Assembly: GCF_900103485.1 (NCBI RefSeq)
Contig: NZ_FNHW01000001.1
Coordinates: forward strand, 1,275,418 to 1,339,417
Direction: 5' to 3'
DNA from: Fictibacillus solisalsi
GTDB lineage: Bacteria; Bacillota; Bacilli; Bacillales; Fictibacillaceae
Length of the DNA: 64,000 nt
Below the pieces are notes generated by a model. The model saw only the letters and a program-made list of their open reading frames with translations. It did no database searches and was not told the DNA's origin. Positions 36,578 to 50,091 of the stretch are shown piece by piece; the first letter of the stretch is position 1; each line of letters begins with the position of its first letter. A program made the position numbers and the translations under genes.

Positions 36578-36638
36578 TTGAAATTTAAAAGGAAAAGAGT
36601 ATACTGTAAGTAATCTTACATACCGACCGGTTAGTAAG
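36578..36638 (+). promoter_or_regulatory. Promoter plus perfect 24-bp TetR-type operator of the acyl-CoA operon
   Basis: TTGAAA (36578-36583) and TATACT (36600-36605) are spaced 16 bp. Just downstream, 36615-36638 reads CTTAC-AT-ACCG-AC-CGGT-TA-GTAAG, a perfectly symmetric dyad whose ACCG..CGGT core is typical of TetR-family operators. It would cover the transcription start. The obvious candidate repressor is the TetR protein encoded within the operon (40402-40968). The dyad is seen directly; the binding partner is inferred. Confidence 0.8.
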
Positions 36639-36657
36639 TTGAAAGGAGATGAAGCAT

Positions 36658-37881
36658 ATGGATTTTTCATATTCTGAGCGGGTTAACAGCCTTCGTAAAC
36701 GAATTGCAGATTTTATGGAGCAGCATGTTTATCCGAATGAACAGCTTTATGAGGAACAACTTAATCAGCAGGAAAGCCGTTGGAGCGATGTTCCTCCCAT
36801 TATGGAAGAGCTGAAAGAGAAAGCAAAAAATGAAGGGCTCTGGAATCTTTTTCTCCCTGAGAGTGAATACGGTGCTGGATTGAACAATCAGGAATATGCG
36901 CCGCTTTGTGAAGTTATGGGTCGTTCGTTAATCGGTCCAGAAGTGTTCAATTGCAATGCACCGGATACCGGAAACATGGAGGTGCTCGTTCGCTATGGGA
37001 CAGAGCAACAAAAAGAACAATGGCTAAAACCATTGCTCGACGGAAAAATCCGTTCCTGTTTTTCGATGACCGAGCCTGATGTAGCATCATCGGACGCAAC
37101 CAATATTGAGGCCCGAATTGAAAAAGACGGTGATGAGTATATAATAAATGGACGCAAATGGTGGTCCTCGGGTGCAGGGGATCCACGCTGTAAAATAGCC
37201 ATCGTGATGGGAAAGACAAATCCGTCCATGAACCGTTATGAACAGCAATCGATGATTTTGGTTCCACTGGATAGTCCAGGGATAAAAATCGACCGTCTGC
37301 TGCCGGTTTTTGGCTATGATCATGCCCCACACGGACACGCCGAAATTACCTATGAAAACGTCAGAGTTCCTGCAGAAAATATTCTTTTGGGGGAAGGAAA
37401 GGGATTTGCGATTGCCCAGGGAAGACTGGGACCCGGAAGAATTCACCATTGCATGCGCCTGATCGGTGCAGCAGAACGTGCGCTTGAGGAATTATGTAAG
37501 CGTGTTCAAGATCGCGAAGCTTTTGGCAAGCTGATAGCCGAACAGGGGGTGGTCCGCGAATGGATCGCAGATTCACGGATTGAGATCGAACAAGCGCGGC
37601 TTTTAACGCTTAAAGCGGCGTATATGATGGACACGGTGGGCAATAAAGCGGCGAAAGCAGAAATTGCGATGATTAAAGTCGTTGCTCCTTCCATGGCTCT
37701 TCGTGTCATCGACCGTGCCATCCAGGCTTTCGGAGGTGCTGGAGTTTCCAATGATGTTACGCTTGCCGCGCAATGGGCCAACGCCCGGACCCTTCGTCTT
37801 GCTGATGGACCGGACGAGGTACACCGAGCCCAGCTGGCAAAACTTGAATTAAAGAAATATGAAGAACAAGTGGTCCATTAG
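36658..37881 (+). CDS. Acyl-CoA dehydrogenase of the ACAD10/ACAD11 type
   Basis: This is a 407-residue FAD-dependent acyl-CoA dehydrogenase-like enzyme. It closely follows the C-terminal domain of human ACAD11: [17 protein letters not shown], the [21 protein letters not shown] block, [14 protein letters not shown] and [11 protein letters not shown]. The usual catalytic-site EGT(N)EI sequence is replaced by ADGPDEVH, as in ACAD10/11. In those enzymes the dehydrogenase domain works with an APH kinase domain to turn 4-hydroxyacyl-CoA into 3-hydroxyacyl-CoA via a phosphorylated intermediate. Here the kinase is a separate gene six genes downstream. ATG 36658 is preferred over 36649, which abuts the GGAG. 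First gene of the operon. Confidence 0.9.
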
Positions 37882-37892
37882 GAGATGAAACC

Positions 37893-38666
37893 ATGAATGT
37901 TATGAAGCTTTTTGACCTGACTGGCAAAACGGCCATTGTCACAGGCGGCGGCAGAGGCCTGGGCCGGCAAATTGCTGAAGCCCTGGCTGAAGCAGGAGCA
38001 AACGTGGTGCTTTGTTCAAGAGATGTAGAAGCATGCCACGAAAGCGCGGAGCAGCTCGCCGGCCTGGGTATACGCACGCTTGCATTGAGGTGTGACATCA
38101 CCAACCCGGATGATGTAAAAAACGTGGTGAGCGAAACCATCCGCACCTTCGGGACCATTGATATATTAGTAAACAACAGCGGGGCCACATGGGGAGCTCC
38201 TGTTGCAGAAATGCCATACGAAGCCTGGAAAAAAGTCATCGATGTGAATGTCACAGGGACTTTCCTTATGAGCCAGGAAGCTGGTAAAAAGATGATTAAA
38301 CAAAAATCCGGCAAAATTATCAATATTTCTTCCGTTGCAGGCCTCGGCGGCACTGATCCCCGCTTCATGGATACCATTGGCTACAACACAAGCAAGGGAG
38401 CAGTCATCACCTTTACAAAAGATCTGGCTGTGAAATGGGGACAGCACAATATCAATGTGAATGCCATCGCTCCGGGCTTTTTTCCAACCAAAATGTCAAA
38501 GGTACTAATGGAACGCGGAAAGGATGCCATATTGGGAGGAACACCGCTTAATCGGTTTGGTAATGCAGATGACCTGAAAGGAGCAGCTCTGTTTCTTGCT
38601 TCCGGCGCTTCCAATTACATTACAGGAGATGTATTGATTATAGACGGCGGAGCTCATGCCATGTAG
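37893..38666 (+). CDS. Short-chain dehydrogenase/reductase (first copy)
   Basis: This is a 257-residue classical SDR with the cofactor motif TGGGRGLGRQIA, the NNSG structural motif, catalytic Ser in NISSVAG and Tyr-x3-Lys in YNTSKGAV. The C-terminal GDVLIIDGGAHAM closes the fold. It resembles gluconate 5-dehydrogenase/FabG-like enzymes and lies 11 bp after the ACAD gene. In the suggested pathway it could oxidise or reduce a hydroxy/keto-acyl intermediate. Pseudomonas levulinate clusters also carry an SDR. Substrate unknown. Confidence 0.9.
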   Translation: MNVMKLFDLTGKTAIVTGGGRGLGRQIAEALAEAGANVVLCSRDVEACHESAEQLAGLGIRTLALRCDITNPDDVKNVVSETIRTFGTIDILVNNSGATWGAPVAEMPYEAWKKVIDVNVTGTFLMSQEAGKKMIKQKSGKIINISSVAGLGGTDPRFMDTIGYNTSKGAVITFTKDLAVKWGQHNINVNAIAPGFFPTKMSKVLMERGKDAILGGTPLNRFGNADDLKGAALFLASGASNYITGDVLIIDGGAHAM

Positions 38667-38708
38667 GTTAACGTAATAAATTCCATTTTATCTTCTGGAG
38701 GGTGAATA

Positions 38709-40334
38709 ATGAGTGAGGTAAATACCTGGAAAAGCCATTATCCCAAAACCATTCAGCCAGAGATTCAGATTCCCGAGTATACCATTCCGCAGCTTCTTGA
38801 ACATACAGCAGAAAAGTATCCCGACAATATTGCCTTGTCCTTTTTTGGTCATAAGTCCACCTATAAAGAGCTGCAGAATCTTGTGCACCGTTTCGCTTCA
38901 GCCCTGCAAAAAGAAGGATTGAAGGAAGGGGACAGGGTGGCCGTCATGCTGCCAAACTGTCCGCAATATACCATTGCCTATTACGGAATTCTTGCGGCAG
39001 GCGGCATTGTCACACAGGTGAATCCAATGCTTGTTGAACGGGAATTGCTGCATATTATCGAAGACAGTGGTGCGGAGATGATGATTGTCTATGAACCGCT
39101 TGTTGACCAGGTGAACAAGGTTGAACAGTTGTTTTTGTTAAAAACGGTAATTTCTGTAAGTTTTGATCAGCAGCCAAAGCTGCAAAATGTTCCCTCTTTC
39201 TATCAATTTTTGCAAAAAGGGGATCTCCCATTTCAAAGGGTTCCCGTTTCTCCAGATGAAACAGCGGTTTTACAGTATACAGGCGGTACGACAGGAAGGT
39301 CCAAGGGGGCCATGCTGACCCATCGCAACCTCGTCGCCAATGTACTGCAATCGTATGAGTTTTTTAAACTTACTATAGAAATCGGCAAGGAAAAGTATTT
39401 AACGGTCATTCCTCTTTTTCATGTGTTTGGAATGACTTCCTGTATGAACATGGCCGTTTACACAGCATCCGAGAGCATCCTGCTTCCAAGGTTTGATCTG
39501 GAGGAAGTGCTGGAAACAATCAAAATTGAACAGCCTACTGTCTTTCCCGGTGTGCCGACCATGTACGTGGCCATCACCAATCATCCCCTGGCCGAAAACT
39601 ATTCGATTGACTCTATTAAAGTATGCAACAGCGGAAGTGCCCCCATGCCGGTGGAATTGCTTCAGGAGTTTGAGAGAAAAACAGGTTCCGCTATTTTGGA
39701 AGGCTACGGGTTGTCGGAAGCGTCACCAACAACGCATTGCAATCCTCTCTTTGCCGACAGGAAACCAGGGAGTGTGGGAATCGGGCTGCCTTCAACAGAC
39801 TATCTGGTGGTAGATCTGGGTTCGGGAACCAAGGAGGTAGAAACCGGTGAACTCGGTGAGCTGATTATCAAAGGCCCGCAAGTTATGAAAGGGTATTGGA
39901 ACATGCCGGAGGAAACCGAGCATGCCCTGCGGGATGGGTGGCTCTATACAGGGGATATCGCCAAAATCGACGAAGATGGCTACGTTTTTATTATGGATCG
40001 TAAAAAGGACTTGATTATTGCGAGCGGTTACAATGTTTATCCCCGAGAGGTTGAAGAAGTCCTTTATGAACATCCTGCGGTCAGGGAAGCTGTGGTGATT
40101 GGCGTTCCCGATCCATACCGTGGCGAAGAAGTGAAGGCGATTCTTGTACTGAAAGAAGGAAGAGGCGTGACAGAAGAAGAGATCTTCCATTATTGCAAAC
40201 AAAACCTGTCCGCCTATAAAGTGCCTCATCTCATCGAGTTCAGAAGTGAGCTTCCCAAAACGAATGTGGGCAAAATCTTACGAAGAGCTCTTCGGGATGA
40301 AGCAAGAATTCAATCAAATCAATACAGGAGATGA
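38709..40334 (+). CDS. Long/medium-chain acyl-CoA ligase (first copy)
   Basis: This 541-residue adenylate-forming enzyme activates a carboxylic acid to its CoA ester with ATP. It has the core motif YTGGTTGRSKGAMLTH, the A5-like EGYGLSEASP, the hinge DRKKDLIIASGYNVYPREVE and the C-terminal catalytic Lys in PKTNVGKILRRALRDE. A GGAGGG site precedes ATG 38709. It provides the entry step of the operon's pathway. The chain length preferred cannot be read from sequence. Confidence 0.93.
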   Translation: MSEVNTWKSHYPKTIQPEIQIPEYTIPQLLEHTAEKYPDNIALSFFGHKSTYKELQNLVHRFASALQKEGLKEGDRVAVMLPNCPQYTIAYYGILAAGGIVTQVNPMLVERELLHIIEDSGAEMMIVYEPLVDQVNKVEQLFLLKTVISVSFDQQPKLQNVPSFYQFLQKGDLPFQRVPVSPDETAVLQYTGGTTGRSKGAMLTHRNLVANVLQSYEFFKLTIEIGKEKYLTVIPLFHVFGMTSCMNMAVYTASESILLPRFDLEEVLETIKIEQPTVFPGVPTMYVAITNHPLAENYSIDSIKVCNSGSAPMPVELLQEFERKTGSAILEGYGLSEASPTTHCNPLFADRKPGSVGIGLPSTDYLVVDLGSGTKEVETGELGELIIKGPQVMKGYWNMPEETEHALRDGWLYTGDIAKIDEDGYVFIMDRKKDLIIASGYNVYPREVEEVLYEHPAVREAVVIGVPDPYRGEEVKAILVLKEGRGVTEEEIFHYCKQNLSAYKVPHLIEFRSELPKTNVGKILRRALRDEARIQSNQYRR

Positions 40335-40401
40335 AAAATAAGAGAATAACGCAGGATGCCTAATTTTTTCTGTAAACAAAAAAGATTGTGAGGATACGAA
40401 C

Positions 40402-40968
40402 ATGAAAGAAAAAATTACTGAATGCAGCATCTCTTTATTTGAGAAAAATGGATTCAGTGAAACATCCATCCAGGATATCGTGGATGCGCTTGGCGTAACA
40501 AAAGGAACGTTTTACTATTATTTTTCCAGCAAAGAGGAATTGCTGATGAATATTCACAATGGGTATATAGATGAACTGTTGTTTCAGCAGGGAAAAATTC
40601 TGGAAGATTCTTCAATGACGAGTAAACAAAAGCTGTTTGAAATGGTATATACCTTGATCGGCAGTATCAGACAGGCAGGCGCGAGCGCCAAGGTGTTTTT
40701 TCGGGAAATCAAAAACCTGAACGAAGAACGGCTTTCCCAAATTGTGCCTAAGCGGGACCGCTTCCGCTTTAATCTTGAAAAGCTTATTGAGGAAGGGATC
40801 ATACGCGGGGAATTTCGCGGAGATCTGAATCCGTCCATCGTCACATTCGGAGTACTTGGTGCGGCCAATTGGAGCTACCAATGGTATAACCCGGACGGGG
40901 AGCTGTCTGAAAAAGAAGTGGCTGGAATTTTTGTTGAAATGATACTCAACGGCATTGCCAATCATTAA
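40402..40968 (+). CDS. TetR-family transcriptional regulator
   Basis: This 188-residue regulator has an N-terminal helix-turn-helix (CSISLFEKNGFSETSIQDIVDALGVTKGTFYYYFSSKEELL) and an all-helical C-terminal ligand domain ending GVLGAANWSYQWYNPDGELS, the type seen in acyl-CoA-responsive TetR repressors of fatty and branched acid catabolism. It sits inside the operon between the ligase and the hydroxyacyl-CoA dehydrogenase. The only strong dyad in the region lies at the operon promoter, so autorepression relieved by an acyl-CoA is the simplest model. Confidence 0.9.
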   Translation: MKEKITECSISLFEKNGFSETSIQDIVDALGVTKGTFYYYFSSKEELLMNIHNGYIDELLFQQGKILEDSSMTSKQKLFEMVYTLIGSIRQAGASAKVFFREIKNLNEERLSQIVPKRDRFRFNLEKLIEEGIIRGEFRGDLNPSIVTFGVLGAANWSYQWYNPDGELSEKEVAGIFVEMILNGIANH

Positions 40969-40993
40969 TAAAGGATTAGAAGGAGGGCAAAAA

Positions 40994-41878
40994 ATGAGAG
41001 TGGAGGATTTGCAGCAAATTACCGTGTTGGGAGCCGGCCAGATGGGGCATCAGATTGCCATGCTCTGTGCGCTTGGAGGATTTGAAACCGTGATTCAGGA
41101 TATCAATGAACCGGCCCTTAAATCAGCGGAAAGCATACTGCAAGACATTATGAACCGCTGGGTATCCAAGGGACGGTTGTCAGCAGAAGAGAAGGAGAGT
41201 GCGTTCAAAAGGCTGCGATTTACAAGCAATTTTGAAGATGCCGTCAGAAATACCGATTTTGTTATCGAAGCGGTAGTGGAAAAATTGGAGGTCAAACGGG
41301 ATGTGTTCGCCAAGCTGGATGAATTGGCTCCGCCTCATGCCGTCTTTGCCTCCAACAGCTCGACGATCGTCAACAGTCTGATCGCGTCGGAAACCGGCCG
41401 TCCGGATAAAGTTGTCAACATGCACTTTTTCTTTCCACCGCTTGTGATGGATTGCGTGGAAGTAGTAATGAGCGAGAAAACGTCAGAAGAAACTGCCCAG
41501 CTTGCCATGGATATTTGCAAAAAGATCAACCGCACAGCTGTATTGCTCAAAAAAGAGATATCCGGTTTCATCGCCAACCGGATTTTGGGTGCTTTACAAA
41601 AAGAGGCTCTGAATTTGTATGAACAGGGAATCGCGGATTTTAAGGACATTGACATCATCTGCAAAAAAGCACTTAACCATCCGATCGGACCGTTTGAATT
41701 AATGGACCTGTCGGGGATTGATGTTGGATATTACGTATCCGAGCAGCGTTATAAGGAAACAGGTAACCCGGAAGACAAGCCGGCTGCCTGCATCGAGGAA
41801 AAGGTGAACCAAGGGCATTTGGGCAGAAAAACAGGACAAGGCTGGTACACATACAAAAAAGAAGGAGTGAAATCATAA
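40994..41878 (+). CDS. 3-hydroxyacyl-CoA dehydrogenase
   Basis: This is a 294-residue NAD-dependent enzyme of the Hbd/PaaH type. The dinucleotide motif is VLGAGQMGHQIA, the catalytic region is SNSSTIVNSLIA with MHFFFPPLVMDCVEV (His), followed by Glu in the canonical position, and the C-terminal helical domain carries NRILGALQKEALNLYEQGIAD. The ATG at 40994 follows AGGAGGG; the frame runs upstream into tetR but without a good start. It oxidises 3-hydroxyacyl-CoA, the expected product of the kinase/ACAD pair. It shares one base with the next gene. Confidence 0.93.
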   Translation: MRVEDLQQITVLGAGQMGHQIAMLCALGGFETVIQDINEPALKSAESILQDIMNRWVSKGRLSAEEKESAFKRLRFTSNFEDAVRNTDFVIEAVVEKLEVKRDVFAKLDELAPPHAVFASNSSTIVNSLIASETGRPDKVVNMHFFFPPLVMDCVEVVMSEKTSEETAQLAMDICKKINRTAVLLKKEISGFIANRILGALQKEALNLYEQGIADFKDIDIICKKALNHPIGPFELMDLSGIDVGYYVSEQRYKETGNPEDKPAACIEEKVNQGHLGRKTGQGWYTYKKEGVKS

Positions 41879-42657
41879 TGGGAAAATTCCTTGATGTCGT
41901 GAAAGAAAATGCGGTGGCGGTTATCACCATTCAAAATCCGCCTCTGAATGTTTTGAGTAAAGCAGTTTTTCAGGAACTGGATGATGTGTTCATGGAATTG
42001 GAACAAGATCCAGAAACGGTAGCTGTAATAGTAACTGGAGCCGGAGAGAAGGCCTTTGTTGCAGGAGCAGATATTAAAGAATTTCCACAGATGATGGGAA
42101 ATCCGGACATGAAGAGCTATGTTATGGATGTTCATATGATTCTAAACCGGATTGATTTCTTTCCTAAGCCAACGATTGCGGTATTGAACGGCCTGACGTT
42201 TGGCGGCGGGTGTGAACTGGCACTTGCCTGTGATATAAGAATTGCTGAAGAGCATGCACAGATCGGTCTGCCAGAAGTGACGCTCGGATTGTTTCCCGGA
42301 GGAGGGGGAACACAGCGGCTTCCGCGTCTCGTAGGCGTAGCAAAAGCAAAGGAAATGATGTTTACGGGGGAACCTGTTACGTCGGAGACGGCTCTCGGAA
42401 TCGGACTTGTCAATCATGTTGTTCCGTCCGGCGAGGGGCTCAATGAGTCGAAAAAGCTTGCTGCCAAGATTACACGCCATTCCCTGCAGGCCTTATCGAG
42501 AATCAAGCGGTCCGTGGATGAAGGCTTGGAAAAACCATTGACTGAAGGCATTGAGCTGGAAGCTTCTCTTTTTCAGGAAGTGTTTCAGACAGAAGACATC
42601 AAAGAAGGGGTGCAAGCCTTTTTTGAGAAGCGAAAACCCGCATTTATGCATCGTTAA
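41878..42657 (+). CDS. Enoyl-CoA hydratase (first copy)
   Basis: This 259-residue crotonase-fold enzyme has the oxyanion hole residues in [12 protein letters not shown] and [12 protein letters not shown], and the catalytic-region glutamates in [23 protein letters not shown]. It hydrates trans-2-enoyl-CoA to 3-hydroxyacyl-CoA. The start codon overlaps the previous stop by one base (TAATG), so the two are coupled. Confidence 0.93.
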
Positions 42658-42681
42658 GCACACAAATAAGGAGAGAACGGT

Positions 42682-43101
42682 ATGCATACCATTGATCTGA
42701 CCGTACGCTTTTGTGAAACGGACGCTTTAGGCCACGTTAATAATACCAGTTATTTTATTTACCTTGAGGAGGCCAGAGTAAAGTTCTTTGAATCTCTCGG
42801 TTTTGGGGTCAGCACGGAAGAATGGAATTTCATTCTCGCCTCCACCACGTGTGATTTTAAGGCACAAGGATATTTCAACGATAAGCTCACCGTTGATACC
42901 AGTGTTTCCTCTGTCGGCAATAAGAGCTTTGTTCTCACGCATGAAGTCCGGAGAACAGAGACGAAGGAACTGGTCGCCAAAGGGAGCGCCACCCTTGTAT
43001 ACTTCGATTTTAAAGCCCAAACGACAGAAATTATTCCCGATGAATTGCGCGCGGCCCTGACCCGTCATGCAGGGAGGCTGCCGGTTGAATCGGAATCTTA
43101 A
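42682..43101 (+). CDS. Acyl-CoA thioesterase, 4HBT hotdog family
   Basis: This is a 139-residue hotdog protein with the 4-hydroxybenzoyl-CoA thioesterase motif RFCETDALGHVNNTSYFIYLEEARVKFF, whose Asp is the catalytic acid/base. It likely hydrolyses acyl-CoA intermediates to free CoA. It is encoded 24 bp after the hydratase with a GGAGAG site. The closest known relatives in Bacillus are YneP-like thioesterases. Confidence 0.88.
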   Translation: MHTIDLTVRFCETDALGHVNNTSYFIYLEEARVKFFESLGFGVSTEEWNFILASTTCDFKAQGYFNDKLTVDTSVSSVGNKSFVLTHEVRRTETKELVAKGSATLVYFDFKAQTTEIIPDELRAALTRHAGRLPVESES

Positions 43102-43129
43102 TTCATTTTCGGATTGAGGAGGGTAACAC

Positions 43130-44188
43130 ATGAGTCAGGATACCATCGCGGTCAGAAGTGGAGAAGAGCTCGACACAGGAACACTTGAGCGGTTCCTTCG
43201 CCGGTCGTTACACGATCTGCCGGAGGAGCCTTTGGAAATACAGCAATTTTCCGGTGGACATTCCAATTTAACCTATCAGCTGAAAATGGGAAGCTGGGAA
43301 GCGGTTCTGCGGCGGCCGCCCCTCGGTCCTGTTGCGCCAAAAGCGCATGACATGGAACGGGAATACAGAATTTTGTCTGAAATCCATGAACTTTTTTCTC
43401 CTGCGCCGAAGCCTCTTCTTTTTTCAAATGGAGAGGAAGTGATCGGAAAACCATTCTTTCTTATGGAAAGAAAGCATGGACTTGTGGTCGATTCGGTTTT
43501 TCCGGAAGATGTGAATGCCACAGAAAGCTTATGTACACATATTTCCCAAGAAATGGTGAGGCAGCTTGTCCGGCTGCACAGCATTGATTATACAAAAACA
43601 GAGCTGATAAACATCAGTAAGCCGGAGGGTTTTATGGAACGGCAGGTACACGGGTGGATCTCCCGATATGAACGTTCAAAAACAGAGGATATTCCCGAAG
43701 TGGATCACCTTACACGATGGCTCGCTTCCCACATTCCGGACAACACTGAAGCCTGTTTGATTCACTATGATTATAAACTAAACAACAGCATGTTTGACGC
43801 AAACCTGAATGAAATGACCGGTTTGTTTGACTGGGAGATGAGCACGGTCGGCGATCCGCTCGCGGATCTTGGCGTTGCTATGAGCTACTGGATGGAAGCA
43901 GATGACCCAGAGCTTTTAATAACAGGGCTTGGAAAACCATCCGTTACGGTCATGAAAGGCTTTTATTCCAGGAATCAGTTTATTGAGGATTATGCGAGTC
44001 TAAGCGGCAGAGATGTCAGCTCGATTTCTTTTTACCTGACCTTTGCCTATTTCAAGCTGGCCGTCATCTGCCAGCAGATTTATTACCGTTACCGTAAAGG
44101 ACAGACTCGTGATTCCCGCTTCTCCGGTTTTCACCATTTTGTAAAAAGCTTGATACTGCACGCATCAGATACGGCGTTTCGGAATTAG
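43130..44188 (+). CDS. APH-family kinase of the ACAD10/ACAD11 type (putative hydroxyacyl-CoA kinase)
   Basis: This 352-residue protein has the aminoglycoside-phosphotransferase fold and matches the N-terminal kinase domain of ACAD10/11: QQFSGGHSNLTYQL, VLRRPPLGPVAPKAHDMEREYRIL and FDWEMSTVGDPLADLG. The catalytic loop is HYDYKLNN (Asp214), with Tyr in place of the usual Gly in HGDxxxxN; the catalytic Asp and Asn are kept. The DWE of the metal site is at 234-236. In mammals the kinase domain phosphorylates the 4-hydroxyl of 4-hydroxyacyl-CoA, and in Pseudomonas LvaA does this as a separate protein. Co-operonic with the matching ACAD, so the same chemistry is inferred. Confidence 0.88.
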   Translation: MSQDTIAVRSGEELDTGTLERFLRRSLHDLPEEPLEIQQFSGGHSNLTYQLKMGSWEAVLRRPPLGPVAPKAHDMEREYRILSEIHELFSPAPKPLLFSNGEEVIGKPFFLMERKHGLVVDSVFPEDVNATESLCTHISQEMVRQLVRLHSIDYTKTELINISKPEGFMERQVHGWISRYERSKTEDIPEVDHLTRWLASHIPDNTEACLIHYDYKLNNSMFDANLNEMTGLFDWEMSTVGDPLADLGVAMSYWMEADDPELLITGLGKPSVTVMKGFYSRNQFIEDYASLSGRDVSSISFYLTFAYFKLAVICQQIYYRYRKGQTRDSRFSGFHHFVKSLILHASDTAFRN

Positions 44189-44224: not shown

Positions 44225-45001
44225 ATGATGAAGGTACATGTGCTGTTAACAAAGGAAGAAATCAATGCAGAGAGGTTAAGAGAGAATGGAAAAGTGGCGG
44301 TTGTTCTTGATGTGCTTCTCGCCACAACAACCATTATTTCAGCCTTGAACGAAGGCGCAAAGGAAGTTATTCCTGTTATGGATGAAAATGAAGCATTTTC
44401 TCTCTCTCAATCTCTCAAACACGAAAATTTCATATTAGCTGGAGAACGTGACGCCCGACCGATTGAACACTTTCACTATCCTAGCCCGACCATGCTTTCT
44501 CCGCTCGTTCTGGGCAAATCTCTTATTCTCTCTACAACCAACGGAACGATTGCGCTTAAGAAAGCGGAATCAGCGGAACGTGTTTATATTTCATCTCTTC
44601 TCAACAATAAAAGAACGGCACAGCAGCTACTGGATTGTCACCTGGAAAGCACGATTGTGATCATTTGTTCAGGCAATGCAGGGGAGGTCAGTCTTGAAGA
44701 CGTGTACGGAGCCGGACACCTTATCCACTCCTTATTGTACCTCTCGCAACAGAGCATAAATATGAGTGATGCCGCTAAAATGGCCTTTTATTTGTTTTTG
44801 GGAAACCAGTACAAAGCCTCTGAGCTGTTGTCCTCTTCCTCTGTGGGGAATCTTTTTGAAAGGTACGGGCTGTTTGACGATCTCCAGCTTGCTGCCACTG
44901 CAAATACAGTATCGGTATTGGCGGTGATGAAAAACGGGACTGCCCTGCTGGAAGAGGAGCATGCCTCTCAATCCGAGATCAGAAAAGTGAGGGATATATG
45001 A
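44225..45001 (+). CDS. ComB-family (2-phosphosulfolactate phosphatase-like) protein
   Basis: This 258-residue protein has the ComB pattern: VAVVLDVLLATTTIISALNEGA (family consensus DVLRATT; the Arg is Leu here), LAGERDARPIEHF, LILSTTNGTIAL and IICSGNAGEVSLEDVYGAGHL. ComB proteins are Mg-dependent acid phosphatases acting on 2-phosphosulfolactate and similar alpha-phospho acids. It overlaps the next dehydrogenase gene (ATGA), so it belongs to the operon. No other sulfolactate or coenzyme M gene is nearby. A role in removing a phosphate from a phospho-hydroxyacid made by the kinase upstream is possible but speculative. The Arg-to-Leu change may mean a different substrate. Confidence 0.82.
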   Translation: MMKVHVLLTKEEINAERLRENGKVAVVLDVLLATTTIISALNEGAKEVIPVMDENEAFSLSQSLKHENFILAGERDARPIEHFHYPSPTMLSPLVLGKSLILSTTNGTIALKKAESAERVYISSLLNNKRTAQQLLDCHLESTIVIICSGNAGEVSLEDVYGAGHLIHSLLYLSQQSINMSDAAKMAFYLFLGNQYKASELLSSSSVGNLFERYGLFDDLQLAATANTVSVLAVMKNGTALLEEEHASQSEIRKVRDI

Positions 45002-46766
45002 TGGAAGATATCCGTACGAGAATCAAAGGATCGCAATTTTTGTTAAAGGGGATGAAGTCGCAAGACATTTTTACCCCCGAAGACTTTTCCGATGAGCACC
45101 GGATGATTGAGAAGACCGCCCGGCAATTTATTGAAAAAGAAGTGGAACCTTTCCGGGAACCTATTGAAAAGCAAGATTTTAAAAAAATCATCTCTCTACT
45201 GAAAAAAGCTGGGGATCTTGGCCTTCTTGCACACAGTATACCGGAAAGCTATGGCGGTCTTGGACTGGATAAAATCAGCAAGGGCATTGTAGGGGAGGCG
45301 ATCGGTCACTCCAGCGGCTATGGTGTGGCCCATTCCAATCACACGTGCATTGCGACGCTGCCGATTACTTATTTTGGAACACCGGAGCAAAAAAAAAATA
45401 TCTTCCGAAAATGGCATCCGGTGAATACATCGGTGCCTATTGCCTAACTGAACCGAACGCCGGTTCCGATGCACTTGCCTCCAGGACAACCGCTGTTCTT
45501 AATGAGGAAGGTACTCATTACATCCTGAACGGAACAAAAATTTATATTACAAATGCGGCTTTTTCCGATACGTTTATCGTTTATGCAAAAGTAGATGGAG
45601 AGAGGTTCACAGCCTTTATTGTTGAGAAAAGTTTCCCCGGATTGTCACTTGGTCCGGAAGAAAACAAAATGGGAATCAAAGGCTCGTCCACCCGTTCGGT
45701 CATTCTTGAAGATTGCCGGGTTCCTGCAGAAAATCTTCTTGGCGAAGTAGGAAAAGGACATGTCATCGCCTTGAACGTATTAAATCTGGGACGATTTAAT
45801 CTTGGATCGGCGTGCATGGGTGCAGCCAAACACGGTTTGAAAAAAGCGGTCCATTTTGTTCAGGAACGCAAACAGTTTAAACAGCGTATCGCCGATTTTG
45901 CGGCCAGCAAAGAAAAAATTGCCAAGCTTGCCGCCCGGCTTTATGCAGCAGAATCACTGCAATACCGAACCGCCCATCTGCTCGAAGATGCGCTTGGGAG
46001 CCTTGATGAACATGCGGATTTGAAAACAGTGGGAAACGCGATGAGCGAGTACGCTATGGAATGTGCCATCTGCAAAGTGTACGGGTCGGAAACTCTCGAT
46101 GTGACGGCAGACGAAGCCTTGCAGCTGCATGGCGGAGCAGGGTTCATTCAGGAATATGGCATGGAACAGCTGTACAGGGATTCCAGGATCAACCGGATAT
46201 TTGAAGGGACCAATGAGATTAACCGCCTGCTGATCCCCACCCACTTTTTTAGAAAGGAAATGAAGGGCGAGGTGGATTTAGAATCAGCTCTCCTAGAGGC
46301 TGCTAGTTATCTGGAGAAGGAGAACGATGATGAGAAAGACGATATGCTGAAAAGCGTGGAAACACTTCGGCACCTGTTTCTTCTTTCAGCCGGACTGGCC
46401 TACAAGCGTTTCGGTGAAAAGCTTATGCATGAGCAGGAAATTTTGATGATGCTGGCCGATCTCGCCATTCTCACCTATGCAGCAGAGTCTGCAATTCTTC
46501 GCACCATGAAGGAAGCAAAGCAGAACGGGGAAGAACAAGCCTCTCTTAAAATCGCTCTGTCACAGACTTTGCTTGAGGAAAGCTTGTGGGAAGCTGAAAA
46601 GCTATCACGGAAACTAATTCTGGAACTGGCCGGGGGAGAAAAAGCACAGCAGCTGCACTTGCTTGTTGTTCAATCGTGTAACCGCTGTCATTCTTATGGT
46701 CAAGAAATAAAACGCAACCGGATGATTGCCGAAAAACTATATGATGCAAATCGCTATATTTGCTAA
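44998..46766 (+). CDS. Acyl-CoA dehydrogenase (second copy) split by a frameshift at an A10 tract
   Basis: Two overlapping frames together encode one VLCAD-like dehydrogenase. The first frame (44998-45447) gives the N-terminal 130 residues up to GTPEQKK, then leaves register and stops. The second frame resumes with KYLPKMASGEYIGAYCLTEPNAGSDA and runs to 46766. The break is a run of ten A (45389-45398). One added A restores a continuous 589-residue protein with the expected GTPEQKKKYLPKMASGE. Downstream motifs are intact (FAD region GTKIYITNA, catalytic Glu in FEGTNEINR), as is a C-terminal helical extension. It may be a sequencing slip, a real mutation, phase variation or transcriptional slippage. 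Start at ATG 44998 or 45001. Confidence 0.88.
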
Positions 46767-46778
46767 AGGAGACAAAGG

Positions 46779-47558
46779 ATGAAATTTGGAGGTTCGATTG
46801 CACTTGTAACAGGGGCAGGAAGCGGTATTGGAAGAGCAGCAGCGATCAAACTGGCAGAAGGCGGAGCAACGGTTCTCCTTGTTGGAAGAACGGTGTCCAA
46901 ACTGGAAGCTGCGGCTTCAGAAATCAGCAAAATAAGCGGAGCCCAGAAGCCGGAAATCTTTTCTGCCGACGTAACGAAAGAAAAAGATGTGGAAAAACTG
47001 GCAGAATATGTTCAAACTCGTTTCGGTGATCTGCACATTCTTGTGAACAATGCTGGCGGCAGCAGCCAGACCTCCATCCTGAACACACCAGTCAGTGAAT
47101 GGGATTACGTGCAAAGCGCGAACTTAAAAAGTGTCTTTCTCGTTTCTCGCATTCTTGGCAAAGTGATAATCAAAGGTGTAAAAACGGAAAACGAACACAA
47201 AGCCAACCGTGCCATTGTGAATGTTGCCAGCTTATCAGGGCATCAGGCTGGTGCACATATCCCCCATTACAGTGCGGCCAAAGCAGGGGTGATCAATTTT
47301 ACAAGAGCACTCGCCTTGGAGCTTTCCCCCTACAGTATACGGGTGAACTCGGTATCACCAGGATTTATCGAGACACCACTGACCGAGGAAGGACTCGAAA
47401 ACGAACAATTCGTCAAAGCGATTGAAAAAAATACGGCATTGCGAAGGATCGGCAAGCCTGAGGAGATTGCGAGCATCATCTCTTTTCTCGCGAGCAGTGA
47501 GGCTTCCTATATGACCGGATCGGATGTTCTGGCCGACGGAGGCTGGCTAATTAAATAA
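46779..47558 (+). CDS. Short-chain dehydrogenase/reductase (second copy)
   Basis: This 259-residue classical SDR has the cofactor motif TGAGSGIGRAAA, NNAGG, catalytic Ser in NVASLSGHQ and Tyr-x3-Lys in YSAAKAGV, and the C-terminal GSDVLADGGWLIK. It is FabG-like, probably acting on 3-hydroxy/3-oxoacyl substrates. It is encoded 12 bp after the split dehydrogenase, on the same transcript. Confidence 0.9.
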   Translation: MKFGGSIALVTGAGSGIGRAAAIKLAEGGATVLLVGRTVSKLEAAASEISKISGAQKPEIFSADVTKEKDVEKLAEYVQTRFGDLHILVNNAGGSSQTSILNTPVSEWDYVQSANLKSVFLVSRILGKVIIKGVKTENEHKANRAIVNVASLSGHQAGAHIPHYSAAKAGVINFTRALALELSPYSIRVNSVSPGFIETPLTEEGLENEQFVKAIEKNTALRRIGKPEEIASIISFLASSEASYMTGSDVLADGGWLIK

Positions 47559-47579: not shown

Positions 47580-48359
47580 ATGGAACAAGATCATCTATTA
47601 ATTGAAGCAAAAGGCCCGATTTTAACACTAACACTAAACCGTCCGGAACGCTTGAATTCATTCAGTGAGGAAATGATTACAAGTTTGACAGAAGCTCTGA
47701 GAGAGGCTCAGAATTCTGGTGAAATTAAAGTGATTATCCTGAAAGGAGCCGGCCGTTCGTTCAGTGCTGGCGGAGACGTAAAAACGATGGGACAGGCCAC
47801 ACCACAGGATGTTTATGAACATATTGGTAAGCTGAACCAATGTATTTTAACTATGAAAGAAACCGAGATTCCGATCATTGCGGCTGTGCATGGCTTTGCG
47901 GCAGGAGCCGGATTTAATCTCGCGATGGCGTGCGATTTGATCGTTGCAGCCGAGAACAGCAAATTTGCGCTCAGCTTTTCACAGGTGGGTTTGATTTCGG
48001 ATGGAGGAGGATCATACTTTTTGCCAAAACTGATCGGCCCTCACCTTGCCAAGCAGTTCTTTTTCAGCGCAGAGCCGATTCCTGCCGAACGGCTTTATCA
48101 GCTCGGGGTGATCAACTATTTGTCGCCGCTTGAGCGAATAGAAGAGGAGGTGGGTCAACTGGCAGCAAAACTTGCCAATGGTCCGGTTGGAGCGTATGGA
48201 AAAATGAAAAAGCTGATTGATGCTTCTTATCAGTCTACCCTTGAGGAGATGCTGGAGCAGGAACGGCTGAATCAAACGCTGATGATCACAACAGAGGACC
48301 ATCAGGAAGGCATTTCGGCCTTCAAAGAAAAAAGGCAGCCTGTATTTACCGGCAAATAG
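47580..48359 (+). CDS. Enoyl-CoA hydratase/isomerase (second copy)
   Basis: This 259-residue crotonase-family protein has oxyanion hole segments in RSFSAGGDVKTM and HGFAAGAGFNLAMACD. The usual catalytic glutamate around position 140 seems to be replaced in the FSQVGLISDGGGSYFLPKLIG stretch (PaaG-like pattern with an Asp), which points to isomerase-type or PaaG-like activity rather than classic hydration. AGGAGG precedes the ATG. Confidence 0.88.
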   Translation: MEQDHLLIEAKGPILTLTLNRPERLNSFSEEMITSLTEALREAQNSGEIKVIILKGAGRSFSAGGDVKTMGQATPQDVYEHIGKLNQCILTMKETEIPIIAAVHGFAAGAGFNLAMACDLIVAAENSKFALSFSQVGLISDGGGSYFLPKLIGPHLAKQFFFSAEPIPAERLYQLGVINYLSPLERIEEEVGQLAAKLANGPVGAYGKMKKLIDASYQSTLEEMLEQERLNQTLMITTEDHQEGISAFKEKRQPVFTGK

Positions 48360-48402: not shown

Positions 48403-50091
48403 ATGAACACAAGCCACTATCCTTATTGGCCGAAACGAGTCAGCAAAACGCTGACTGTCCCTGAAACAACACTGTATGATAACTTGCTCTTTTCCGCACG
48501 CCGGTATCCAAAAAAGACAGCGTTATCTTTTTACGGAGCCAGCATGACCTATGAAAAGCTGCTACAGCAGGTGGATCGTATTGCCGGATATCTGCAGCAG
48601 GAAATGAACGTTGGGCAGGGTGACCGTGTCATGCTGTTTATGCAAAATTCCCCTCAGTACATCATCTCTTGTTATGCCATCATGAGGGCGGGTGCGGTTG
48701 TAGTCCCGTTAAATCCAATGAACACGGTGCATGAGCTGGAGTTCTATATCAAAGACTGTAAGATCGAAGCCGGGATTGTAAGCCAGGAGCTATACCCCCA
48801 GATTCAGCCGCTCTTATCAGGCACTTCCTTGCAGCATATTTTAATCGGAGCATATTCTGATTACCTTAGCAGCGAAAGAATCCCTCACCATGTTCCAGCT
48901 TCTGTTCTGGAAAGCCGGCATCCGGTGAACCGGAAAAACCATCATTGCTGGCAAGAAGCTCTTGATCGGGAAGTCCCTCCTTCTGACTATGAGGGCCATG
49001 CGGATGATATCGTTTGTCTGCCTTACACATCTGGAACAACAGGATTGCCAAAAGGCTGTGTACATACAAACCGGACGATACAGGCCAATGTTACAGGTGC
49101 GGTGAACTGGATGAACACCATGTCGGACAGCATTCACCTTGCGACTCTTCCGCTTTTTCATGTGACGGGGATGCTTCACAGTATGCATGCTCCCATTTTT
49201 GCAGGTTCCCAAATCGCTGTGCTCACCCGGTGGGACCGAAACGCGGCTGCAGAAACCATTCAATCCGAGAGCGTAAGCCACTGGGTAAGCATCAGCACAA
49301 TGGTGATCGACTTTCTGTCTCATCCTGACCTTATGGATTATAATTTTTCGTCACTGTCCAGCATCGCAGGAGGAGGAGCGGCCCTTCCGAAGGCAGTGGG
49401 AGAAAAACTTTATCAGCTTCTAGGGGTGAAGTTTGTCGAAGGGTACGGCCTTTCCGAGACGATCTCTCATACGCATTTCAATCCGCCTGACCGGCCAAAG
49501 CTTCAGTGTCTCGGTATTCCTTCCTTTGATGTGGACGCCCGCATTGTGGACCCTGCTTCATTAAAAGAGCTGGGAGTTGGTGAAATCGGGGAGATCGTCG
49601 TGGCCGGTCCGCAAGTGTTTTTAGAATATTATAACCGTCCGGAAAAGACGAAGCAGGCCTTCTTTGAAAAAGACGGTAAACGCTTTTTCAGAACAGGAGA
49701 TATAGGACGCTTTGATGAGGAAGGCTATTATTTTATGGTGGACCGGGTGAAACGGATGATCAACGCCTCGGGCTTTAAAGTGTGGCCGACTGAGGTGGAA
49801 TCTTTCCTTTACAACCATTCTGCTGTACTGCAGGCTTGTGTAGTCGGCATTCCTGATCCGAAACGAGGAGAAACGGTAAAAGCTTTCATTATTTTAAAGG
49901 AAGAACACAAGGGGAAAATAACGGAACAGGAGATCATTGACTGGTCCAAAGAGCACCTGGCTGCCTATAAATACCCGAGAACCATTGAGTTTAGAGAATC
50001 GTTTCCAACAACAGCCAGCGGCAAAATTCTTTGGAGAAAGCTGCAAGAAGAAGAAAAGTCCAAAAGGGAATCTATTTCAGCTTCTAAGTAG
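48403..50091 (+). CDS. Long/medium-chain acyl-CoA ligase (second copy)
   Basis: This is a 562-residue adenylate-forming enzyme: YTSGTTGLPKGCVHTN core, VEGYGLSETISHTH, DRVKRMINASGFKVWPTEVE hinge and the C-terminal lysine in TTASGKILWRKLQEEE. It is the last gene of the operon, followed by a bidirectional terminator. Having a second ligase in the same operon implies either two related substrates or two steps separated by hydrolysis. Confidence 0.92.
   Translation: MNTSHYPYWPKRVSKTLTVPETTLYDNLLFSARRYPKKTALSFYGASMTYEKLLQQVDRIAGYLQQEMNVGQGDRVMLFMQNSPQYIISCYAIMRAGAVVVPLNPMNTVHELEFYIKDCKIEAGIVSQELYPQIQPLLSGTSLQHILIGAYSDYLSSERIPHHVPASVLESRHPVNRKNHHCWQEALDREVPPSDYEGHADDIVCLPYTSGTTGLPKGCVHTNRTIQANVTGAVNWMNTMSDSIHLATLPLFHVTGMLHSMHAPIFAGSQIAVLTRWDRNAAAETIQSESVSHWVSISTMVIDFLSHPDLMDYNFSSLSSIAGGGAALPKAVGEKLYQLLGVKFVEGYGLSETISHTHFNPPDRPKLQCLGIPSFDVDARIVDPASLKELGVGEIGEIVVAGPQVFLEYYNRPEKTKQAFFEKDGKRFFRTGDIGRFDEEGYYFMVDRVKRMINASGFKVWPTEVESFLYNHSAVLQACVVGIPDPKRGETVKAFIILKEEHKGKITEQEIIDWSKEHLAAYKYPRTIEFRESFPTTASGKILWRKLQEEEKSKRESISASK

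Follow-up and report, generated by a model that had tools for sequence, protein, structure and literature searches.

A 64,000-nucleotide stretch of the genome of Fictibacillus solisalsi (contig NZ_FNHW01000001.1, positions 1,275,418 to 1,339,417; here called the window, whose own numbering is used throughout) raises the question of what is done by an operon that encodes a kinase and an acyl-CoA dehydrogenase (ACAD) of the ACAD10/ACAD11 kind together with a relative of the phosphatase ComB. The initial annotation of this DNA had described the kinase and dehydrogenase as a split ACAD10/11 pair. Both separate genes, and the six motifs quoted from their products, are present in the translated sequence. 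Absent from that annotation were the ComB-like gene, a TetR gene, a palindromic operator at positions 36621-36636 and a broken frame in a second ACAD gene (ACAD2). The sequence comparisons described below make it likely that this is a TetR-controlled operon for the catabolism of 4-hydroxy acids, in which the ComB-like protein would check a phosphorylated intermediate.

The kinase and the dehydrogenase

Judged by its layout, the operon comprises 13 genes, all on the + strand between positions 36649 and 50091; neighbouring genes overlap slightly or are separated by no more than 67 bases. The kinase gene occupies positions 43130-44188 (+), as first annotated. Its product belongs to the Pfam family APH (E = 2.2e-46) and has as its nearest solved structure the Protein Data Bank (PDB) entry 9o56, with a score of 491 bits, followed by mouse ACAD11 and 3dxp (159-162 bits) and then by matches of 62 and 30 bits. 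Entry 9o56 bears the name "Aminoglycoside phosphotransferase", and a literature search covering few subscription journals found no paper naming it. Within its own genome the kinase ranks first of 11 APH-family matches, with 159.9 bits against 80.7 for the second.

The catalytic residues H212-Y-D214 and N219 are in place, and R171 is the counterpart of ACAD11 R176. All the key residues of mouse ACAD11 but one were mapped, and every mapped residue is present in the window proteins; the exception is the published R86, which has no match by residue number, the window kinase having R77, an Arg beside the alphaC Glu. The motif HxDxxxxN is found in the kinases of all 80 related loci, which are the best 80 of 409 confirmed relatives from a scan of named genomes. 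In a phylogenetic tree built from 20 of these loci, other fetched loci and three PDB chains, without the Pseudomonas putida kinase LvaA, the window kinase falls with other Bacillales kinases and 9o56 (support 100/98) inside the ACAD11-like set. It is split from the other APH proteins of its genome with support of 93/86 on long branches, two of seven candidate outgroup APHs having been retained, one of which covers 25% of the columns. The kinase is 97% identical to that of F. enclensis. PDB scores, genome ranking and tree agree in separating it from unrelated APH proteins; a place among these would have refuted the initial reading.

The dehydrogenase gene extends from 36649 to 37881 (+), its open reading frame beginning nine bases before position 36658, where the start had been placed. 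The protein has Pfam acyl-CoA dehydrogenase domains and scores 483-502 bits with human and mouse ACAD11 and with bacterial 4hr3, the next ACAD scoring 150 bits; by this measure it is nearer to ACAD11 than to other ACADs. In mouse ACAD11, residues R626, H634 and R637 hold the 4-phosphate, and D753 is the catalytic Asp that stands in place of Glu (PMC12440821). The alignment equates R259, R264, H267, R270 and D386 of the window protein with R626, R631, H634, R637 and D753 of the mouse protein. The segment GRLGPGRxHHCMR is kept in 62 of 63 relatives' dehydrogenases and LADG(P/T)D in 58 of 63. At four loci (L143, L144, L146 and L147) a remoter ACAD variant, about 40% identical and with the motif GPGRITHAMRW, adjoins the kinase; it retains the phosphate-holding His and Arg of ACAD11.

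The gene arrangement is itself conserved. The kinase's run holds an ACAD11-type gene in at least 55 of the 80 loci, a TetR gene in at least 63 and the first ligase gene in at least 55, these counts being minima because several loci end at contig ends. An incidental pairing of an antibiotic-type APH with an ordinary beta-oxidation dehydrogenase would suit the Pfam family name and the public name of 9o56, but is contradicted by the scores, the tree, the conserved active sites and the conserved operon, and is scarcely credible. On the sequence evidence both proteins belong to the ACAD10/11 groups, and the PDB scores, active-site residues and gene layout uphold the description of a split pair in one operon. 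That the kinase/dehydrogenase pathway operates is highly probable.

In the proposed pathway a ligase would make the 4-hydroxyacyl-CoA, and the APH kinase would then phosphorylate the 4-hydroxyl at the expense of ATP. The ACAD11-like enzyme would remove the phosphate via an internal flavin redox reaction to yield a 2-enoyl-CoA, from which a hydratase and a 3-hydroxyacyl-CoA dehydrogenase would continue beta-oxidation, the thiolase being supplied from elsewhere in the genome. Working with the kinase, the ComB-like protein would limit the phosphorylated intermediate, which it might hydrolyse slowly or else bind, restraining the kinase much as the HAD domain of ACAD10 does.

The ComB-like protein

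The gene directly 3' of the kinase (44225-45001, +) encodes a phosphatase-fold protein of family PF04029 (201.8 bits, cut-off 26.4), which matches the ComB structure 1vr0 with E = 1.6e-29. Its scores lie under all eight listed NCBIfam cut-offs for ComB, for example 158.2 of 330 and 109.1 of 175.05. In a tree of PF04029 proteins, 65 kinase-linked sequences, together with two unlinked ones from kinase-bearing genomes, form a single clade (97/90), which lies apart from the ComBs encoded near ComA and from those in the PDB.

A ComB-like gene is situated within the kinase's run in 50 of the 80 loci; in 48 of these it is the next gene 3' of the kinase, and in 2 it has another place in the run. This linkage persists where the kinases are only 41-45% identical. 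The ACAD, kinase and ComB-like genes lie side by side in L146 and L147. The association was also examined in 60 near genomes, among them that of the window; 22 of the 60 have the kinase. A PF04029 match is present in each of the 22, no more than 3 kb from the kinase and on its strand in 19 of them (in G036 as a fragment only); of the 38 genomes without the kinase, 11 have such a match anywhere. Clade-type ComB is present in 20 of the 22 and in none of the 38 (Fisher p = 5.5e-14, kinship ignored). Nine of the 11 genomes with a match and no kinase were placed in the tree, all outside the clade; score alone was the basis for counting the other two (G011 and G033), and a second match in each of G031 and G032, as outside it. 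One genome of the same genus, G001, has neither kinase nor PF04029 match, as expected if both were lost together. The balance of this evidence favours an action of the ComB-like protein on the phospho-intermediate of the pathway or on the kinase.

Sporulating bacilli make sulfolactate, and the ComB-like gene could be an ordinary sulfolactate gene present in the operon by chance, the more so as it is the genome's sole PF04029 match. ComA (PF02679), however, has no match in the window genome (G000) or in six congeners. It is found in 10 of the 60 genomes, three of which (G038, G040 and G054) are among the 22 with the kinase. In G038 a second PF04029 match adjoins ComA, and G040 and G054, which speak for the sulfolactate explanation, are taken up below. 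Linkage to the kinase across many genera, the separateness of the clade and the scores under every ComB cut-off likewise oppose this explanation, which is very improbable. Four genomes (G048, G049, G052 and G059) have ComA without a PF04029 match; in these, the sulfolactate route may depend on a different phosphatase.

The active site of the kinase-linked proteins is partly preserved and partly altered. All 65 linked sequences keep D29, G73-E74, T104-T108, N127 and E158-D159. At position 32, 63 of them, including the window protein, have Leu, one has Met and one has Phe, and position 86 is Pro in all 65 (P86 in the window). Arg32 and Asn86 are found in all seven ComBs compared, namely the four encoded near ComA, one of which (L156) is very divergent, and the three in the PDB, including 2z0j. 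A second, remote PF04029 paralogue, with Ser, Arg and Leu at positions 32, 74 and 86, occurs in L126-L130, mostly in genomes without ComA; PF04029 matches in L184-L191 score about as low and are outside the alignment.

The protein might instead be a fully active phosphatase that acts as a relief valve by clearing 4-phosphoacyl-CoA or a dead-end 4-phospho acid, with the residue changes serving only to shift its specificity away from a small sulfonate and towards an acyl chain. Retention of the acidic and TTNGT residues in 65 of 65 sequences agrees with this, as do the free 4-phospho acid reported in mammalian cells (PMC11342911) and the phosphate removal suggested for a histidine phosphatase of Pseudomonas citronellolis (PMC6692424). 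However, Arg32 and Asn86 are also present in 2z0j (TTHA1438, Thermus by its tag), and the Thermus control genome has PF04029 and no ComA match, so these residues do not look sulfolactate-specific. The histidine phosphatases that adjoin the kinase in other bacteria, described below, are without the catalytic His in 14 of 14 cases, which also argues against full activity. A fully active phosphatase is thus possible yet somewhat doubtful. Of the two modes open to a protein that keeps the intermediate in check, a binding brake appears slightly more likely than slow hydrolysis: the repeated loss of residues favours the brake, and the retention of the core residues keeps hydrolysis alive.

Other phosphatase-fold proteins beside the kinase

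Kinase neighbours were further compared in 25 plasmid loci, 16 of them opened from 40 listed among 246 records and 9 from 16 found in a search with an Ideonella kinase, the latter biased towards Ideonella kin. A histidine phosphatase gene adjoins the kinase in 14 of the 25 (one gene apart in L199): six from Deinococcus, two each from Pseudoalteromonas and Streptomyces, and one each from Rhodobacteraceae, Ideonella, Sulfitobacter and Azospirillum. One further locus, from Tsukamurella, has a HAD gene in the cluster, and one record is unannotated. No histidine phosphatase homologue was found in the 80 loci with five queries at E 1e-4.

Residues R8, H9, G10, R54 and E79 are kept in all 14 kinase-associated histidine phosphatases. 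All 14 have Ser (in TSGG, TSAG or SSGG) where ordinary ones have His, the comparison set being two ordinary histidine phosphatases of the window genome and PGAM5; the window genome has six PF00300 matches, of which two genes gave usable rows, and L201, L203 and L204 were unaligned. The replaced residue corresponds to the second catalytic His of the family. A histidine phosphatase gene beside an LvaA homologue was described earlier in the lva cluster of P. citronellolis, where there is no LvaB and the authors suggest that the protein removes phosphate (PMC6692424).

The HAD protein of Tsukamurella, the only HAD partner found outside ACAD10, was read from an open frame. It has the segment LFDYGGVL, in which the first Asp of DxD is present and the second is lost. 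The HAD domain of ACAD10 shows the same loss; it has almost no phosphatase activity and acts as a restraint on the kinase (PMC11342911).

ComB, histidine phosphatase and HAD are unrelated folds that occur beside one kinase, each missing residues that its compared relatives keep, and the simplest explanation is that they share a task concerning the phosphorylated intermediate. Tentatively, at least these three folds may have been recruited independently, the remaining half-site in each binding 4-phosphoacyl-CoA and slowing the kinase, which would make them a convergent product-sensing brake.

In two Deinococcus loci a superoxide dismutase family gene (~1.4 kb; positions 1-1001 of L198 and 1-512 of L132) lies upstream on the strand of the kinase cluster. 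A superoxide dismutase of D. radiodurans fused to a beta-propeller lactonase was described in 2025 (PMC12362111).

Substrate

Levulinate and lactone-derived acids had both been named initially as possible sources of the substrate. Support for levulinate is weak: the operon leaves no space for an LvaB gene, it has a TetR regulator in place of LvaR, and relatives carry lactonase genes. The statement on LvaB follows from gaps of at most 67 bases and an assignment for every gene, no search with the LvaB sequence having been made.

Hydrolysis of gamma-lactones gives 4-hydroxy acids, so that lactonase genes fit the substrate class proposed initially. A phosphotriesterase-family (PTE) lactonase gene is present in 10 of the 80 loci, in nine of them within the kinase's run, and one of the loci is that of the congener F. 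terranigra. The copy of F. terranigra (L024) belongs to PF02126 and includes among its top PDB matches GkaP of Geobacillus kaustophilus (3orw, 517 bits); the other nine copies are 73-76% identical to it. GkaP hydrolyses gamma- and delta-lactones, among them gamma-hexyl-gamma-butyrolactone, and acts better on medium-chain delta-lactones (PMC4338136). The Tsukamurella cluster likewise contains a PTE-family gene, and one of the Deinococcus clusters has a gene for an SMP-30/gluconolactonase. The lactonases of relatives thus favour lactone-derived 4- (or 5-) hydroxy acids over levulinate. The window operon itself contains no lactonase gene.

In a Planococcus locus (L089) a gene for a cytochrome P450 (Pfam) lies directly 3' of the kinase. 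Genes that cluster with this P450 occur near or after the kinase in three other Planococcus loci (L070, L077 and L099), and in L089 and L099 the run consists only of the ACAD11 gene, the kinase and the gene of this cluster, suggesting hydroxylation of fatty acids within the cell. In six loci (L055, L074, L081, L095, L097 and L098) the kinase is followed in the same run by genes that by eye are of the branched-chain amino-acid type of ABC transporter, possibly an uptake system for the substrate. The substrates most likely come from gamma-lactones or from hydroxylation.

The same chemistry could be applied to a different hydroxyacyl substrate, such as 5-hydroxy acids, hydroxylated aromatic side chains or branched acids. 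The delta-lactone preference of GkaP-type lactonases, the Planococcus P450 and the variation of accessory genes between genera leave room for this. On the other hand, the residues with which ACAD11 contacts the phosphate are all unchanged, and the redox elimination proposed for ACAD10 puts the leaving group at C4 (PMC11342911), so that another substrate class is unlikely.

The operator and its regulator

The inverted repeat TACCGACCGGTTAGTA (36621-36636, no strand assigned) is situated directly 5' of the first gene; neither the window nor the rest of the genome contains a second exact copy. A loose form of it occurs once in the window and in none of 100 shuffles. The 80 loci contain 98 such sites, compared with 0-10 for each of 25 control palindromes, 24 of which have three or fewer; 92 of the 98 lie no more than 250 bases upstream of a pathway gene, and these are spread over 66 of the 80 loci. 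Genome-wide, the count of operator matches shows no enrichment, the backwards control pattern being commoner (20 and 19 matches).

The TetR-family protein of the operon (40402-40968, +; Pfam) would be a local repressor and probably binds this palindrome, its predicted operator; the arrangement suggests a TetR switch that serves a single operon. Three further places in the genome match with one mismatch, and the one of these that was opened lies inside a gene, flagellar by reading. The regulon is here treated as the 13-gene operon alone, two of the three places remaining unopened. A FadR-type box of Bacillus subtilis gave two matches in the window, which are the two strands of one site, where 1.8 were expected; it was dropped, as the operator is a different palindrome. 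Scans of the window for promoters and terminators gave results at chance level.

The remaining genes of the operon

The first ligase gene (LIG1, AMP-binding, 38709-40334, +; Pfam/NCBIfam) is preceded by SDR1 (37893-38666, +), a short-chain dehydrogenase (SDR) above the cut-off of the NCBIfam subfamily PRK08213, which may reduce a 4-oxoacyl-CoA or oxidise a 3-hydroxyacyl-CoA. Between the TetR gene and the kinase are, by Pfam, genes for a 3-hydroxyacyl-CoA dehydrogenase (40955-41878, +), the enoyl-CoA hydratase ECH1 (41878-42657, +) and an acyl-CoA thioesterase of the 4HBT type (42682-43101, +). Behind the ComB-like gene lie ACAD2, a FadE-type ACAD (44998-46766, +; Pfam/NCBIfam), the short-chain dehydrogenase SDR2 (46779-47558, +) and the enoyl-CoA hydratase/isomerase ECH2 (47580-48359, +), both assigned by Pfam/NCBIfam, and the second ligase LIG2 (48403-50091, +), which is above the cut-off of the NCBIfam subfamily PRK08314. 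The frame of ACAD2 is broken near position 45390 in a run of A, and the F. enclensis copy is intact with 589 residues; an error in sequencing, a genuine loss or slippage on the A run could each account for the break.

The ligases, hydratases, hydroxyacyl-CoA dehydrogenase and thioesterase noted around the pair at the outset are confirmed by Pfam. To call the route complete was too strong, as Pfam/NCBIfam annotation finds no thiolase gene among the 13.

Distribution

Across the phylum, 5 of the 199 Bacillota genomes searched have the kinase (E up to 1e-40), namely that of the window, another of the same class and three of a single genus in another class. Accessory genes differ between genera. 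A locus titled Pseudomonas sp. ISL-84 (L031) is a Bacillales operon with a kinase 66% identical to that of the window, and the name of the record is probably wrong.

Observations that do not fit

Several observations weigh against the function proposed here. In 30 of the 80 loci no ComB-like gene is present in the kinase's run; 18 of these genomes have no PF04029 match, eight have only low-scoring ones (79-90 bits), and four have a stronger match elsewhere that by eye carries the Leu/Pro signature but is outside the tree. The partner must therefore often be dispensable, unlinked or replaced. Similarly, 9 of the 25 plasmid loci have no phosphatase annotated beside the kinase. The presence of the ComB-like gene is not associated with that of the thioesterase gene (28 of 50 loci with it and 12 of 30 without it; p = 0.25), and a two-step valve made up of thioesterase and ComB-like protein was dropped for that reason. 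When 13 genes were tested in this way, the smallest p was 0.010 (SDR1), which is non-significant once corrected.

G040 and G054 have ComA and only a kinase-clade PF04029 match, so that a sulfolactate role is possible for some members of the clade, though such a job is unlikely in the window genome. As to the substrate, there is no PLL lactonase in the window operon, the genome's one homologue being 33% identical and situated elsewhere, and the preference of GkaP for medium-chain delta-lactones makes 5-hydroxy acids possible. Finally, the operator is still present in 9 of the 11 loci that have no TetR homologue in the stretch, where the regulator must be encoded elsewhere.

Relation to known systems

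A split arrangement is itself already known from Lva of P. putida and its orthologues in Burkholderia pseudomallei, which were tested by others (PMC11342911); what sets the operon apart from known systems is the ComB-like partner. No paper on the pathway in Bacillales, or on a link between ComB and the kinase, was among the matches listed in the literature search.

Mammalian ACAD10 and ACAD11 likewise combine a kinase with an atypical ACAD having the same active-site residues (PMC12440821, PMC11342911), and ACAD10 has in addition the phosphatase-fold domain lacking one catalytic residue. In the window the kinase and the ACAD are separate proteins, accompanied by a phosphatase-fold protein from an unrelated family, ComB. 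P. putida Lva resembles the operon in its split kinase (LvaA) and ACAD (LvaC), accompanied by a ligase and an SDR. The SDR of the operon has PRK08213 as its best subfamily, the LvaD sequence itself being outside the comparison. The Fictibacillus operon differs in having TetR for LvaR, extra beta-oxidation genes and the ComB-like partner, and its substrate is probably lactone-derived. The lva cluster of P. citronellolis LA18T is similar in having a phosphatase-family gene beside the kinase and no LvaB, but that gene encodes a histidine phosphatase and not a ComB-like protein (PMC6692424). With the 2-phosphosulfolactate phosphatase ComB (PDB 1vr0, 2yyv and 2z0j) the window protein shares family and core motifs. 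It differs in its separate, kinase-linked clade, in the changes of Arg32 to Leu and Asn86 to Pro, and in belonging to a genome without ComA.

An explanation of the ACAD10/11 route came only in 2024-2025, and the authors who discovered the effect of the HAD domain of ACAD10 left the role of that domain open. The bacterial operon offers small, separate proteins on which the idea of a brake can be tested directly, alongside the parallel losses in three folds. If true, a convergent brake would also explain the puzzling HAD domain of human ACAD10. For the bacilli, the operon would give a specific and testable function to widespread genes that are now filed as phosphotransferase and 2-phosphosulfolactate phosphatase.

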